NCBI RefSeq assembly: GCF_003202035.1
Contig: NZ_QJKC01000001.1
Location: 285,406-349,405 of the forward strand
Reading direction: 5' to 3'
DNA: 64,000 nt
Source: Aquitalea magnusonii
GTDB lineage: Bacteria; Pseudomonadota; Gammaproteobacteria; Burkholderiales; Chromobacteriaceae
Positions 36,901 through 43,380 of this stretch are shown here, one piece after another. The stretch's first letter is position 1; the number at the start of each line of letters is the position of its first letter. The notes below the pieces were generated by a model that saw only the letters and a list, made by a program, of their open reading frames with translations, was not told where the DNA came from and did not search any database. Made by a program: the position numbers and the translations under genes.

Positions 36901-37046
36901 GCATGGCTCCTGCGCCGGGAATGTTGGCTGGTGACTACAAAACCTGAGGGTAACCAGCCAGAGCCTGCCGTATCAAGGAAAATTTGCAACAACACGCCAA
37001 ATACCCAGGCCGGCCGCCTTGTCTGTCCGGCTGGCCATCTGCTATA

Positions 37047-37068
37047 TTTGATTTTGTACAATTTCAAA
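37047..37068. promoter_or_regulatory. Operator-like dyad between HU and the S24-like gene
   Basis: Outer arms TTTGA (37047-37051) and TCAAA (37064-37068) surround a perfect central TTGTACAA (about 37054-37061). Only the two base pairs between arm and centre are unmatched. It ends 8 bases before the ATG at 37077 and overlaps the sequence where a -10 (TACAAT) could lie, so a bound dimer would block the gene. Confidence 0.5.
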
Positions 37069-37076
37069 ATACTGCC

Positions 37077-37436
37077 ATGACCACCATGCTCCCCCACCCG
37101 GCCACCCATCATGCCCTGCCCTCGTCAGTGTCATCTGCCGCTGCCTGCGGCGAGCTGTTTTGCCTGCCCATGCCAGACCAGGCACTGGCGGGTGCCGGCA
37201 TCGCGGCGGGCTGTTTGCTGGCGGTGGATGGCCAGGGCAGCCCGGTGCAGGGTTGCCTGGTGGTGGCCGCTGTCGATGGCGAGCTGCTGGTGCGGCGACT
37301 GCAGCGCAGTGGCAGCCGGCTGCAGTTGCTGGCGGCCCACCCGGACTACCCGCTGATCGAACCCAGCTATGAGCAGGACTTCGCCATCTGGGGCGTGGTG
37401 GCCGAAGCCGGCGTGCCGGCGGCAAGACAAGCCTGA
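37077..37436 (+). CDS. S24/UmuD-like protein lacking catalytic residues
   Basis: A 119-residue protein aligning with the C-terminal domain of UmuD/LexA: AGIAAGCLLAVD, then VVAAVDGELLVRRLQ, LLAAHPDYPLIEPS and FAIWGVV. There is no DNA-binding domain and no umuC beside it. The autoprotease Ser (in G-D-S-M of UmuD) aligns with Ala in DQALAG, and the Lys (FTVKKL) aligns with Arg in LLVRRL. It is thus probably not a protease. Start ATG 37077 has no clear Shine-Dalgarno; a TTG at 36984 behind AAGGA would add 31 residues. Confidence 0.72.
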   Translation: MTTMLPHPATHHALPSSVSSAAACGELFCLPMPDQALAGAGIAAGCLLAVDGQGSPVQGCLVVAAVDGELLVRRLQRSGSRLQLLAAHPDYPLIEPSYEQDFAIWGVVAEAGVPAARQA

Positions 37437-37520: not shown

Positions 37521-38054
37521 TTACGGTTTCTTATGTTGTGCCTTGTCCAGCACCGCCGGCAGATAGCCCTCTACCTGGCGCAGCATGTCCTGGTATGCGG
37601 CCAGCGGCTTGCCCCAGGCATCGGCCACATCATCCATATTGCCGCTGGCGTATTCGGACAGGGTGAAGGTCTTGCCCCTGGCTTCGGGGAATAGCTCCAG
37701 CACCTTGGCCTTGTGCTTGGCGGTCATGGTGAGAATCAGGTCGGAATGGCGGACATCATTGGCATTGAGCTGTGCGGCACGATGGGCCGACACGTCGATG
37801 CCGCGCTGCAACAGCAGGCTGGCAGCATTGGCCTCGGGGCGGTTATCGTAGGGGTCCATGTCGACTGCCCGCGAAATCACCGCGATGGGCAGTTGCTGCT
37901 GCTCGATGCGTTGTCTGGCCAGCGCTTCGGCCGTCACGCTGCGCCCGGTATTGCCGGTATCGACAAAAGCCAGCTTGAAGGGCTCGGCCGCCAGGGCCAG
38001 CCCGCAGGCGGCCAGCAAGCAGACACCCGCCAGTAGTGCAATGAATTTCCTCAT
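37521..38054 (-). CDS. Exported low-molecular-weight phosphatase-like protein with altered active site
   Basis: A 177-residue protein with a signal peptide (about residues 1-23, FIALLAGVCLLAACGLALA) and an LMW-phosphatase/arsenate-reductase fold. The P-loop, normally V-C-x-G-N-x-C-R-S, reads VDTGNTGRSVTAEAL: catalytic Cys is Asp32 and the second Cys is Gly37, while Arg38 remains. The codons GAT and GGG show this is not a misread. The Asp loop DVADAWGKP is kept. A classical Cys-phosphatase reaction is therefore impossible; binding or an unknown reaction is left. GGGAG precedes ATG 38054. Confidence 0.82.
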   Translation of the reverse strand: MRKFIALLAGVCLLAACGLALAAEPFKLAFVDTGNTGRSVTAEALARQRIEQQQLPIAVISRAVDMDPYDNRPEANAASLLLQRGIDVSAHRAAQLNANDVRHSDLILTMTAKHKAKVLELFPEARGKTFTLSEYASGNMDDVADAWGKPLAAYQDMLRQVEGYLPAVLDKAQHKKP

Positions 38055-38380
38055 CGTTGACTCCCTGTCATCCAGCCTGTTCATCATGCTTGTGCGCCGG
38101 CGGGGGCGGCCATATGGCACGGCCCGCAGCAGCAGGCCAGCCACTGCATATTGCCCACGATTTGCGTATGCCAGTCAAATTAAACTTGCCTTGTTCTTAC
38201 GCTGGGCTAGTATACAAGATAAATAAATTGCATAAATTACAGTTTAAATAACTAACATCAAGTCGGGCCATGCAATGCATCAATCACCCCATCAGGTGAC
38301 CGGGAAGCATCGGCATGCCTGCCCGCCTTGGCCGGCATCCATCCTTGCTCTGCCCGCACCTGCCCTGCAAGGAAATGATC
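38055..38380. other. Promoter region of fapF, no gene seen
   Basis: A 326-base gap, AT-rich at 38200-38270. A sigma-70-like pair TTGCCT (38186-38191) and TAGTAT (38208-38213), 16 bases apart, faces the fapF-regulator genes. No convincing sigma-54 -24/-12 element with correct spacing was found by eye. Confidence 0.4.
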
Positions 38381-39643
38381 ATGAATCTGCCGCGTAGTAT
38401 TTGCCCAGGTGCCAAACCGCTATTGCTGAGCGCCGCCCTTGCCGTTGCCTTTCCGCTGCAGGCACAGGCTGAAATCAGCCTGGAGGGCCTGCAACAGCAA
38501 ATCAGCGCCCTGGCCCAGACCAATCAGCAGCAGGAGAGCCGTATCCGCCAGCTGGAAAGACAGCTGGCCAGCCTGCAACACGGCAATACCGCCGCCAGTG
38601 CCGCCAATAATCCGCCGAGCAACGAGACCCCGGCCAGCCAGGGAACGGTGGCAGCCGGCAGTGGACCGGCCCTGCCGGTAGTCAGCGAAGTCCCCAAGAG
38701 CGTGGAAGACATCTACCAGGAAGCCAGCGGCTTTGCCGCCGGGAAGTTTTCCATCGAACCCAGCTTCACCTACACCCACTATGACACCCGCGAACTGGTG
38801 CTGAATGGCTTTCTGGCGCTGGATTCGATTTTTCTGGGCAATATCAATCTGGACAAGGTGGTCAGTGACAGCGTCACCCTGGGCCTGACCACCCGCTATT
38901 CGCCCAGCCCACGCTGGCAGCTGGATGTGGACATCCCCTTTGTCGCCCGTGATGCCACTTATTTTTCCGGCGGTGCTGGCGGTGCGGCCAACAGCGTGTC
39001 GCAGGGTTCGGTACAGCAAGGCCCGACGCTGGGCGATGTCAGCTTTGGCGTGGGTTACAAGCTGGTGGAAGAAAATGCCGACTGGCCGGACATTGTGTGG
39101 AGTGTGCGCGCCAAGGCGCCGACCGGGCGCAATCCCTACGGCATCAAGCTGGTGCAGTCAGCTGACAACAACAATCTGTCCATCCCCAATCGCCTGCCCA
39201 CCGGCAATGGTGTCTGGGGCCTGAGTACCAGCCTGTCCTTCGTCAAGACCGTCGATCCGGCCGTGCTGTTTGCCAGCCTCAGCTACACCCACTATCTGGA
39301 CGGCCATTTCAGCGACATCAGCCCCACCGCCGGCGTGACCCAGCCGGGAGACGTGCGGCTGGGCGACAGCTGGAGCTGGGGAGCCGGCATCGCCTTTGCC
39401 CTCAACGACAAGCTCAGCCTGGGCCTGTCCTATTCGCAACAAATGGTGCAACAGGCACGCATGCGGCAACAGGGCAGCAACTGGACCGACGTAACCGGCA
39501 GCAGCGCCAATGCCGCCAATCTGAACCTGGGCCTGACCTACGCCTTCAGCAAGCACCTGTCCATCATTCCCAATCTGTCGCTGGGCATGACCCCGGACAG
39601 CCCCAATTATGCGTTTTCGGTGAAATTCCCCTACCGTTTCTAA
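38381..39643 (+). CDS. fapF: FapF-like outer-membrane amyloid-secretion pore
   Basis: Exported 420-residue protein: signal peptide (about 1-30, LLLSAALAVAFPLQAQA), a coiled coil (LEGLQQQISALAQTNQQQE and onward, about 32-66), a Ser/Asn/Pro-rich linker, then a beta-barrel of alternating hydrophobic strands ending in an aromatic residue (FPYRF), the mark of an outer-membrane protein. FapF exports Fap amyloid subunits and is gated by an N-terminal helical plug; this architecture agrees. AAGGAA lies 6 bases before ATG 38381. In Pseudomonas it closes the fap operon; here it is on the opposite strand, with the regulator gene behind it. Confidence 0.8.
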   Translation: MNLPRSICPGAKPLLLSAALAVAFPLQAQAEISLEGLQQQISALAQTNQQQESRIRQLERQLASLQHGNTAASAANNPPSNETPASQGTVAAGSGPALPVVSEVPKSVEDIYQEASGFAAGKFSIEPSFTYTHYDTRELVLNGFLALDSIFLGNINLDKVVSDSVTLGLTTRYSPSPRWQLDVDIPFVARDATYFSGGAGGAANSVSQGSVQQGPTLGDVSFGVGYKLVEENADWPDIVWSVRAKAPTGRNPYGIKLVQSADNNNLSIPNRLPTGNGVWGLSTSLSFVKTVDPAVLFASLSYTHYLDGHFSDISPTAGVTQPGDVRLGDSWSWGAGIAFALNDKLSLGLSYSQQMVQQARMRQQGSNWTDVTGSSANAANLNLGLTYAFSKHLSIIPNLSLGMTPDSPNYAFSVKFPYRF

Positions 39644-39654
39644 CGGAGTTGGTC

Positions 39655-40989
<1,335 letters not shown>

Positions 40990-41016
40990 GACCGGACGGC
41001 AGGCCAGGCGGGCGCC

Positions 41017-41694
41017 TCAGCGCACGCCGCTGCCGGACAGCATCAAGCGGCTGGGAATGCTGAAGCTGAAGCCGCTGCTTTGGGGCTGCAATACCAACTG
41101 GATGCGCAGGCTATTGTCGGTACTGATGCCGCTGCCACTGATGCTGGCAAACTGCAGCAACTGGCCCTGGCCCAGCAGCTGGCCCATGCGTCCGGCATTG
41201 CCCAGATCCATGCTGACGGACAGCTGGCCGCTGCCAAGCGTCGTACCACTGCCACTACTCTGCCAGCCGGCCGGCATCTGCAGGCTGGCTGTGCCATCGC
41301 GGCGGATGTCTATGCTGGTGCTGTTGCTGGAGCTGTTGCCATTGCCAGCCTGCTGATTGAGCTGCACCACCCCCTGCACCGAAGCCAGCCCGCTAGTCGG
41401 GGCTGCCGCCACTGCAGCCGTCGTGCCATCACCATTCAGGGTGTAGCGGCTGATGACCGGCACCGCCCCGGCCTGGGCTGTCAGCTGCAATCCGGCTCCT
41501 TGCACCACGCCAGCCTGGTTCTGCCAGGTGGTGAGCATCTGCACGCCGAAGCGCACAATCTGCCCGGCATCGATATAACGACCGCGCAAGCTGTCCAGCA
41601 CGCTGTCGTCGACATAAGCCAGCATGGCGGCTTGCGCCGGCACACTGGCACTCAGTGCCAGCAGTAGCGGCACTGCCCTGGATAAGATACGCAT
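41017..41694 (-). CDS. fapE: FapE-like minor amyloid component
   Basis: Exported 225-residue protein, signal peptide about 1-23 (LLLALSASVPAQA). It begins AMLAYVDDSVLDSLRGRY, as in FapE-type proteins, and has one amyloid-like motif GVVQLNQQAGNGNSSSNS near residue 108, close to the repeats in its neighbours. Ser/Gly/Gln-rich. Last gene of the fap operon on the minus strand; it starts 47 bases after fapD. FapE is a minor fibre constituent in Pseudomonas; here the role is by analogy. Confidence 0.78.
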   Translation of the reverse strand: MRILSRAVPLLLALSASVPAQAAMLAYVDDSVLDSLRGRYIDAGQIVRFGVQMLTTWQNQAGVVQGAGLQLTAQAGAVPVISRYTLNGDGTTAAVAAAPTSGLASVQGVVQLNQQAGNGNSSSNSTSIDIRRDGTASLQMPAGWQSSGSGTTLGSGQLSVSMDLGNAGRMGQLLGQGQLLQFASISGSGISTDNSLRIQLVLQPQSSGFSFSIPSRLMLSGSGVR

Positions 41695-41741
41695 GCCATG
41701 CTCCCGGTCGTCGCCGGCGGGCCAGCGCCCACAGGCCGCAA

Positions 41742-42446
41742 CTATAAGAAATCACTGTAGAGAAAGCCGTATTCCACCAGATCGGCCTGCTGCACCGGCT
41801 GCATGCCGTTCATCAGCTGTCGCGCCGACAACAGGCTGGGCAGCTGGCGCAACGGCCCTTGCGGCTGATAGCCGGGGCCGGCTACCGCCAGCAGCACGCC
41901 ATTCCACTGCCGGGCAAAGTCCCTCATGGCGAGCGCCCGGTTGCCCAGCGCCGGGTCGGCCACATACACCGTGTCGCGGGTGGCCAGCTTCAGAATCACA
42001 AAGTGCTTGTAACCATTGATATCGAGCATGATCAGTGCCGGAATGCGCAGCGCAGGCAAACGCTCCGGTCCGCTGACAAAACCGCTGGCGCGCAGGCCCA
42101 GCGTATTCACATAGTGCTTCATGTCCAGCATGGAAAAACCCTGCTGGCGCACCACATCGGCATTGGCTCCGGCCAGCATGCCGGCGATGACTTGCTGCTC
42201 GTCGAGGTCGCGGCCAAAGCCGTAACGCAGCAAGGTGGCCAGCGCGGCCGCACCGCAGCTGAAATCGGTATGTTGCTCCACCACATGGGCAAAGCGCATT
42301 TCACGCAGGCTATGCACCCGCTTGTAGAGATTGCCCTCGCCGGTATAGGCGGGAACCGCCAGCTCGGCCGCCTGGGCGAACTGCTCACCACCGGGACAGG
42401 ACAGCCCTAGCAGCAGAGACAGCAGCAAGCGCATGGTGAGTTTCAT
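41742..42446 (-). CDS. fapD: FapD-like C39 cysteine protease
   Basis: Exported C39-type peptidase of 234 residues. The catalytic set is complete: Gln58 in VEQHTDFSCG, Cys64, His148 in GYKHFVIL and Asp164 in VYVADPALG. FapD is the processing protease of the Fap system. It has a signal peptide (about 5-27) but no ATPase domain, unlike bacteriocin exporters. An upstream in-frame ATG at 42464 and one at 42434 are alternative starts. It follows the amyloid subunit gene by 51 bases. Confidence 0.85.
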   Translation of the reverse strand: MKLTMRLLLSLLLGLSCPGGEQFAQAAELAVPAYTGEGNLYKRVHSLREMRFAHVVEQHTDFSCGAAALATLLRYGFGRDLDEQQVIAGMLAGANADVVRQQGFSMLDMKHYVNTLGLRASGFVSGPERLPALRIPALIMLDINGYKHFVILKLATRDTVYVADPALGNRALAMRDFARQWNGVLLAVAGPGYQPQGPLRQLPSLLSARQLMNGMQPVQQADLVEYGFLYSDFL

Positions 42447-42497
42447 GGCAAAAGCCGGCAGCACGGCCCAAGGACTGCGCTGCCGGCGTCTCCTGAC

Positions 42498-43316
42498 TTA
42501 GTGGGTGGCGGCAACCGACAGGCTGTTGACCTGCTGGTTGGACAAGCCGGCCGCATTATTCAGGCCGACATTGCCGCTGATGCCATTGACAGAGCCGGTG
42601 ATGCTGGCTGTGCCGTTAAGCGGGAAGAAAGTCGTGACCGAAGTGCCCTGGTTCACCTGCATGCCACCAGCCGAAGCGGTAGCCAGCACGGCCGAGCTGG
42701 CCGAGGCCAGTGCCACGTCATTCTTCTGCTGGTTGCCGGCGCCTGCCGCATTGTTCACCCCGGCATTACCCTGGATGCTGTTCAGCGAGTTGCTGATGCT
42801 GGCGCTCATGTCATTGGAAGTGCCACGCATCGGCTCGGCGAAGGTGTAGCTGTTGCCGTCGTTCATCTGCTCGAAGGAGGTAGAAGCCACCGCACCGCTA
42901 TTCTTGCCGGAGGCCGAGCCGATGGCCACGTTATTGGCCTGCTGGTTGAAGAAGCCGGAGGCATTGTTCACGCCGGCATTACCCTGGATATTGCTTACAC
43001 TGCCGCTTACGCTGGAGCTGGTGGGGTCGGTGACATTCAGCTTGTTGCCCAGGTTTTTCTGTACATCATTCACCTGCGCACTGGCCATGGCATCAGCCTT
43101 GGGGTCAAACACCTCGTACACGGCAATGCCTTCCAGATAGGCGGTGCCAGTCAGGCTGACATTGGTATTGCTATAGGTGTTGGACAGGTTATTGCTGATC
43201 TTGTTGCTGGTAGTGGCCGGCGGATTCGGCTGAGTCGGCGGTTCCATGGCATGAGCGGCACCGAACATACCAACAAGAGCGACGAAAAGCACTTTTTTCT
43301 GCAGCATTGCGGTCAT
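42498..43316 (-). CDS. FapC/FapB-like amyloid subunit with three repeats
   Basis: Exported 272-residue protein (signal peptide about 5-23), Asn/Ser/Ala-rich with no Cys at all. Three repeats of the Fap amyloid type share the core GNAGVNNAAG-x2-NQQ: at about residues 105-135, 172-206 and 239-271, about 66-70 residues apart, separated by linkers of differing sequence. Pseudomonas FapB and FapC have a C-terminal CxxC, missing here. AGGAGAACAATC precedes ATG 43316; the upstream frame extension is false. It is the probable main fibre subunit, since it has the most regular repeats. Confidence 0.85.
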   Translation of the reverse strand: MTAMLQKKVLFVALVGMFGAAHAMEPPTQPNPPATTSNKISNNLSNTYSNTNVSLTGTAYLEGIAVYEVFDPKADAMASAQVNDVQKNLGNKLNVTDPTSSSVSGSVSNIQGNAGVNNASGFFNQQANNVAIGSASGKNSGAVASTSFEQMNDGNSYTFAEPMRGTSNDMSASISNSLNSIQGNAGVNNAAGAGNQQKNDVALASASSAVLATASAGGMQVNQGTSVTTFFPLNGTASITGSVNGISGNVGLNNAAGLSNQQVNSLSVAATH

Positions 43317-43380
43317 GATTGTTCTCCTAGCGATTTGCTTGAATACCGGCCCCGCCACCACTGGCAAAAGCCGGCACGGC

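Follow-up and report, generated by a model that had tools for sequence, protein, structure and literature searches.

The window, a 64,000-nucleotide stretch of Aquitalea magnusonii DNA, encodes a member of a conserved, rare clade of LMW phosphatase homologues in which the catalytic cysteine is an aspartate. The nucleophilic Cys is the defining residue of the LMW phosphatase class; the clade has replaced it and kept the rest of the site. Its members are LMW phosphatase homologues by descent and fold, yet fall outside the enzyme class that depends on Cys, since a test for this residue found none. Most likely, the protein is secreted and periplasmic, a descendant of YwlE-type LMW phosphatases whose cysteines have been replaced. 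A periplasmic phosphatase that is active and works through an aspartyl-phosphate intermediate is favoured over a pseudophosphatase that binds a phospho-ligand, with about an even chance of being right. The main features are the following.

37521..38054, minus strand: gene for the exported LMW-phosphatase-fold protein, 177 aa plus stop (ORF and Pfam)
37989..38054, minus strand: predicted signal peptide, residues 1-22, ALA/AEP (sequence, model helix, hydropathy rule, alignment position)
37938..37964, minus strand: P-loop VDTGNTGRS, residues 31-39 (sequence and alignments)
37959..37961, minus strand: Asp32 codon, at the place of the catalytic Cys, YwlE Cys7 (structural alignment, conservation)
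37941..37943, minus strand: Arg38 codon, phosphate-binding P-loop Arg (28/28 rows)
37620..37622, minus strand: Asp145 codon, at the general-acid place, DP[YF] motif, here DAW (28/28 rows)

The reading frame opens with an ATG at 38054, its stop ends at 37521, and the protein begins MRKFIALLAGVCLLAACGLALAAEPFKLAFVDTGNTGRSVTAEALA. A GTG at 38144 is a possible alternative start for a longer frame; the ATG start yields the signal peptide. The earlier note had described an exported protein of phosphatase fold, and the fold is borne out by a match of residues 29-165 to Pfam LMWPc (PF01451; E 1.2e-23, 84.4 bits against a cut-off of 23.2) and by an AlphaFold model built from 21 sequences (pLDDT 94.9, pTM 0.86). 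The protein scores far under the cut-off of every NCBIfam equivalog, the best being 46 of 247 bits. Thioredoxin-type ArsC enzymes have three redox cysteines; an arsenate reductase of this type was rejected, since the mature protein is cysteine-free and reaches 22.9 of 174.3 bits with the ArsC model.

The N-terminus has a hydrophobic helix at residues 2-18 in the predicted model and an ALA-A-E cleavage-type site. A simple hydropathy rule finds signal-peptide-like starts in 50 of 51 Asp-form rows, in all four exported Cys-form rows and in 2 of 24 cytosolic rows. Export is thus the probable fate of the Asp-form proteins, as had been claimed, and the cytosolic location that would have spoken against the claim is not what these N-termini suggest. 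The signal peptide of the window protein (37989-38054) also contains a lipobox-like LAAC, so that the protein could be a lipoprotein in this one species only; the motif is absent from relatives, and lipid attachment as a clade-wide trait was rejected for this reason. Twin-arginine-like starts (NRR, DRR, SRR) are present in the Caulobacteraceae members L034-L037, L040, L056 and L057, which may use Tat instead of Sec.

The top hit is a YwlE entry in Foldseek as well as in VIA-align (4etn and 4kk4). The 4kk4 structure superposes on the model with a Z-score of 26.8 and 1.2 Å rmsd over 150 residues at 31% identity, and another solved structure of the YwlE / PtpB group, 4pic, matches at 3.7e-21. With residues 26-177 of the model set on residues 1-150 of YwlE (offset 25), Asp32, Thr36, Gly37 and Arg38 correspond to Cys7, Thr11, Cys12 and Arg13 of YwlE. 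The earlier reading of the P-loop, with Asp for the catalytic Cys and Gly for the second Cys, is confirmed by this alignment. In place of the Cys-X5-Arg-Ser/Thr signature of Cys-dependent LMW phosphatases, the clade has Asp-X5-Arg-Ser; the general-acid Asp of these enzymes is present as Asp145, within an Asp loop that reads ADAWGKP. As for the residues typical of YwlE, the Thr at the Thr11 place is kept as Thr36, and Cys7 and Cys12 are replaced by Asp32 and Gly37.

Asp is found at the nucleophile place in all 51 clade rows, of which 28 remain at less than 90% identity, and which come from alpha-, beta- and gammaproteobacteria. Ten loci known as copies were removed before counting, L015 is not in the set and L091, whose frame is unread, is in no count; the 51 rows include some genes reached by two routes, such as L037 and L051, which encode identical proteins. 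The 51 Asp rows are free of cysteine over the whole stretch that starts seven residues ahead of the P-loop Asp and runs to the C-terminus; in the 25 Cys-form rows, between one and six cysteines are found there. All of the 28 Asp rows share Asp32, Asn35, Thr36, Gly37, Arg38, Ser61 and Asp145, so the Arg and the Asp loop are indeed retained, as the earlier note had it. Ser39 and His91 are each present in 27 of the 28 rows, the exceptions being L036, which lacks the P-loop Ser, and L057, which lacks the His; in L058, Ile replaces Thr33. The catalytic and hydrogen-bond roles of the invariant positions are those that we take over from bovine BPTP. Full invariance is seen at 5 of 7 catalytic positions versus 25 of 153 columns (hypergeometric P 0.0013, or 0.007 without Asp32). 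Cys7, Thr11, Arg13 and the Asp are the catalytic positions of PtpB/YwlE according to PMC8001253.

The ratio dN/dS (Nei-Gojobori) stays within 0.03-0.32 for each of the 13 gene pairs compared, with dS saturated in one of them, which points to purifying selection. Since Asp is found in every row, dN/dS stays in this range in every pair and the Asp rows have one origin (100/91 in the tree described below), the pattern is more than chance. Local mutation at Asp32, which homologues mostly keeping Cys would have indicated, is contradicted by the homologue search.

A pattern scan of genome contigs yielded 22 loci from alpha-, beta- and gammaproteobacteria, including Aquitalea, Pseudomonas, Burkholderia, Polaromonas, Curvibacter, Phenylobacterium and Xanthobacter, all with Asp; one of its two patterns contains Asp, so the scan leans to this form. 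The named Aquitalea relatives of the window locus are L021 and L022. Profile searches that did not require Asp gave strong matches that all have it; they scored only a subset of the candidates in each genome, so the counts are lower bounds. At more than 200 bits, the only match in the phylum sample (1/398) and in the class sample (1/321) is the window's own gene. Samples centred on P. fluorescens HK44 (1/249) and Xanthobacter agilis (1/289) each gave the centre genome, while the sample centred on Phenylobacterium kunshanense (Caulobacteraceae) gave 8 of 199 genomes and the Burkholderia-centred (Burkholderiaceae) sample 20 of 299, at 276-286 bits. The Asp family is rare and patchy, being more frequent in the Burkholderia-centred sample. 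Relatives of the window protein were not found in the viral contigs searched. The patchiness, which includes presence in 5 of 10 Aquitalea genomes as well as the low Caulobacteraceae count, is what a decaying, functionless gene might leave behind, but the low dN/dS of every pair, frames that are open throughout and the Burkholderiaceae-centred count make decay very improbable.

An acidic loop is also largely kept, with Asp65 in 25, Asp67 in 27 and Asp70 in 23 of the 28 rows. Together with Asp32 and Asp145 it might form a metal site, making the protein a metal-dependent hydrolase or a metal binder. This is an improbable reading, because one row has Asn instead of Asp67, 5 of 28 do not keep Asp70 and the adjacent P-loop Arg would disfavour a cation.

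Four exported relatives, L044 and L087-L089, keep the nucleophilic Cys, whereas their second Cys has already given way to Gly. They resemble the Asp form in the signal-peptide-like N-terminus, the GNTGRS segment and the SRG loop, and differ from it in the Cys. The earlier note needs a correction on this point: export does not depend on the Asp, since these four are exported with Cys. L044 is on the Klebsiella plasmid pmk1, where it is annotated as 'low molecular weight protein arginine phosphatase'; it has the P-loop VCTGNTGRS and 44-49% identity to the Asp form, and a search of E. coli genomes with it gave no match. On pmk1 (L044:7935-9623), the gene adjoins histidine phosphatase family and peptide deformylase genes. 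L087-L089 come from three small gammaproteobacterial genomes (137-144 bits, P-loop VC[TG]GNTGRS) and retain further cysteines, so export alone does not purge cysteines. In L094, an exported Cys-form gene comes after ORFs that by eye resemble tsf, pyrH, frr and ferredoxin genes.

A tree was built from 59 rows, of which 33 are Asp rows, 4 exported Cys rows and 22 cytosolic Cys rows. In it, the exported rows of both forms are on one side of a branch (100/97), and the closest cytosolic rows are the YwlE-like L080-L082. The tree left out 20 rows, near-copies and the long-branched L047 (19 near-copies in another tree), and kept the P-loop columns, so that part of the support may stem from the trait. 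Support is weaker for which of them, L044 or L087-L089, is the closer relative of the Asp clade (96/77). Since the Asp clade nests in an exported clade with members that have Cys and Gly, the simplest history would be that export and the Cys12-to-Gly change came first, followed by a single Cys7-to-Asp change. The intermediates, which are exported and have the nucleophilic Cys but not the second, provide a series for testing a change of nucleophile in an oxidising compartment.

In the favoured mechanism, Asp32 would attack the substrate phosphate, which Arg38 and the P-loop amides would hold, and Asp145 would protonate the leaving group and then activate water. The aspartyl-phosphate would be hydrolysed in the style of the haloacid dehalogenases, on another fold and with no known metal. 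With Asp and Gly standing in for the two cysteines, neither oxidation nor disulfide formation could harm the site outside the cytoplasm. The periplasm is an oxidising compartment, and it would fit an adaptation to it that every exported row lacks the second Cys and every Asp row has lost its cysteines altogether, although we infer this from sequences. In PMC8001253, the catalytic Cys of PtpB, a YwlE relative, is described as oxidation-sensitive. By its title, 4kk4 is the YwlE C7S mutant with phosphate on the serine of the active site, so an oxygen at the YwlE nucleophile place can accept phosphate. A Cys-to-Asp replacement takes two base changes in the codon; drift alone should therefore more often yield Ser, Gly, Tyr or Arg. 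Of the two alternatives in the earlier note, binding of a phospho-ligand or an unknown use of Asp, the anionic replacement, the invariant general acid and the P-loop network would fit catalysis better than binding. Thr36 and the Asp145/aromatic-147 pair match YwlE residues tied to phosphoarginine, which makes phosphoramidates, or at low pH acid-labile phosphomonoesters, first guesses for the substrate. The fuller proposal, that one Cys-to-Asp event in an exported lineage lacking the second Cys gave a cysteine-free aspartyl-phosphate phosphatase for the oxidising periplasm, an independent invention on the LMW-PTP fold, is put forward with slightly less than even confidence.

The main competing explanation is a pseudophosphatase, a periplasmic sensor, carrier or decoy whose P-loop would bind a phosphorylated ligand and leave it uncleaved; phosphate, a phospho-sugar, a phosphoprotein and a phospholipid head group are candidate ligands. 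It deserves serious attention but is appreciably less probable than catalysis. A binder would account for the retained Arg and P-loop, and the exported clade's differences at W147 and in the SRAVDMDP loop could suit a different ligand. The D2 domain of the receptor phosphatase PTP99A, which is of another fold class than LMW-PTP, also has Asp at the nucleophile place. This domain is inactive and restoring the Cys alone gave no activity, as stated in PMC3172300, but it is an intracellular domain with critical mutations in other motifs, while the Asp clade keeps the rest of the site. In the related enzyme Stp1 of S. pombe, removal of the anionic nucleophile (C11G) tightens phosphate binding about 1,800-fold, from 18 mM to 10 uM (PMC3699461); loss of the charge is therefore what one would expect of a protein that only binds phosphate, and Asp keeps it. 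The general-acid Asp145, invariant in the 28 rows, would be of little use to a binder. If the protein is a binder after all, it would be a bacterial exported pseudophosphatase of LMW-PTP fold, of which searches of open-access text showed no example; searches of open-licence literature likewise showed no paper on exported or Asp-form bacterial LMW phosphatases. The PTP1B C215D mutant, which reportedly (Romsicki, 2003) keeps a low, slow activity with an acid optimum, carries no weight in this choice, as two accounts of it differ. The other account, in PMC3172300, cites the mutant as binding without catalysis.

Comparison with known systems places the clade nearest to the YwlE / PtpB arginine phosphatases, with which it shares the LMW-PTP fold, Thr11, Arg13 and the general-acid Asp. 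It differs from them in the changes of Cys7 to Asp and Cys12 to Gly, in export, in the cysteine-free mature part, in the SAG loop, which is SRAV[DN]xDP, and in the loss of the Pro after RS. Classical LMW-PTPs (Wzb, Etp, MptpA and bovine BPTP) have the same fold, Arg, general-acid Asp and Asn/Ser/Ser/His network, but the clade is without Cys-X5-Arg, is exported and stays at or below the NCBIfam score given above. The haloacid-dehalogenase Asp phosphatases use the aspartyl-phosphate chemistry that is proposed for the clade, with another fold and a Mg-dependent DxD motif; Pfam gave the window protein no HAD match.

Divergently from the gene, the window has fapF (38390-39643) and then a VpsR-domain sigma-54-type regulator (39658-40989), after which come fapE, fapD and fapC, on the strand opposite to the Asp gene. 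Positions 38390-43325 hold a fap functional-amyloid set (fapF, VpsR-domain regulator, fapE, fapD, fapC/B-like); its fapF, fapE, fapD and fapC score under the curated NCBIfam cut-offs, so the set is divergent. The fap genes of P. fluorescens are reported to be driven by the c-di-GMP-responsive regulator BrfA (PMC13101488). Divergent fapF neighbours are also found in L021, L022 and L101. A link with Fap was rejected, because among ten Aquitalea genomes four have both genes, three have fapF without the Asp gene and one has the Asp gene without fapF; two have neither, one of them 61% complete. Remnants of the Asp gene were not found in the flank examined at the fapF loci of the three fapF-only genomes, and the window fap proteins have no match in L023-L042.

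Clustering of ORFs from the 22 loci and the window gave no conserved neighbour, only common families in varying order, which by eye include GGDEF proteins, oxidoreductases and regulators. The gene stands alone. No pho box of at least 11/14 is present upstream of the 51 Asp genes, and at 10/14 the excess (12 of 51 versus 5.65 in shuffles) is too weak to claim, so membership of the Pho regulon was rejected. A promoter and terminator scan at the gene gave nothing. The other side of the gene is adjoined by a plus-strand reading frame (36984-37436) for a Peptidase_S24 domain protein, with a UmuD/LexA-like C-terminal domain.
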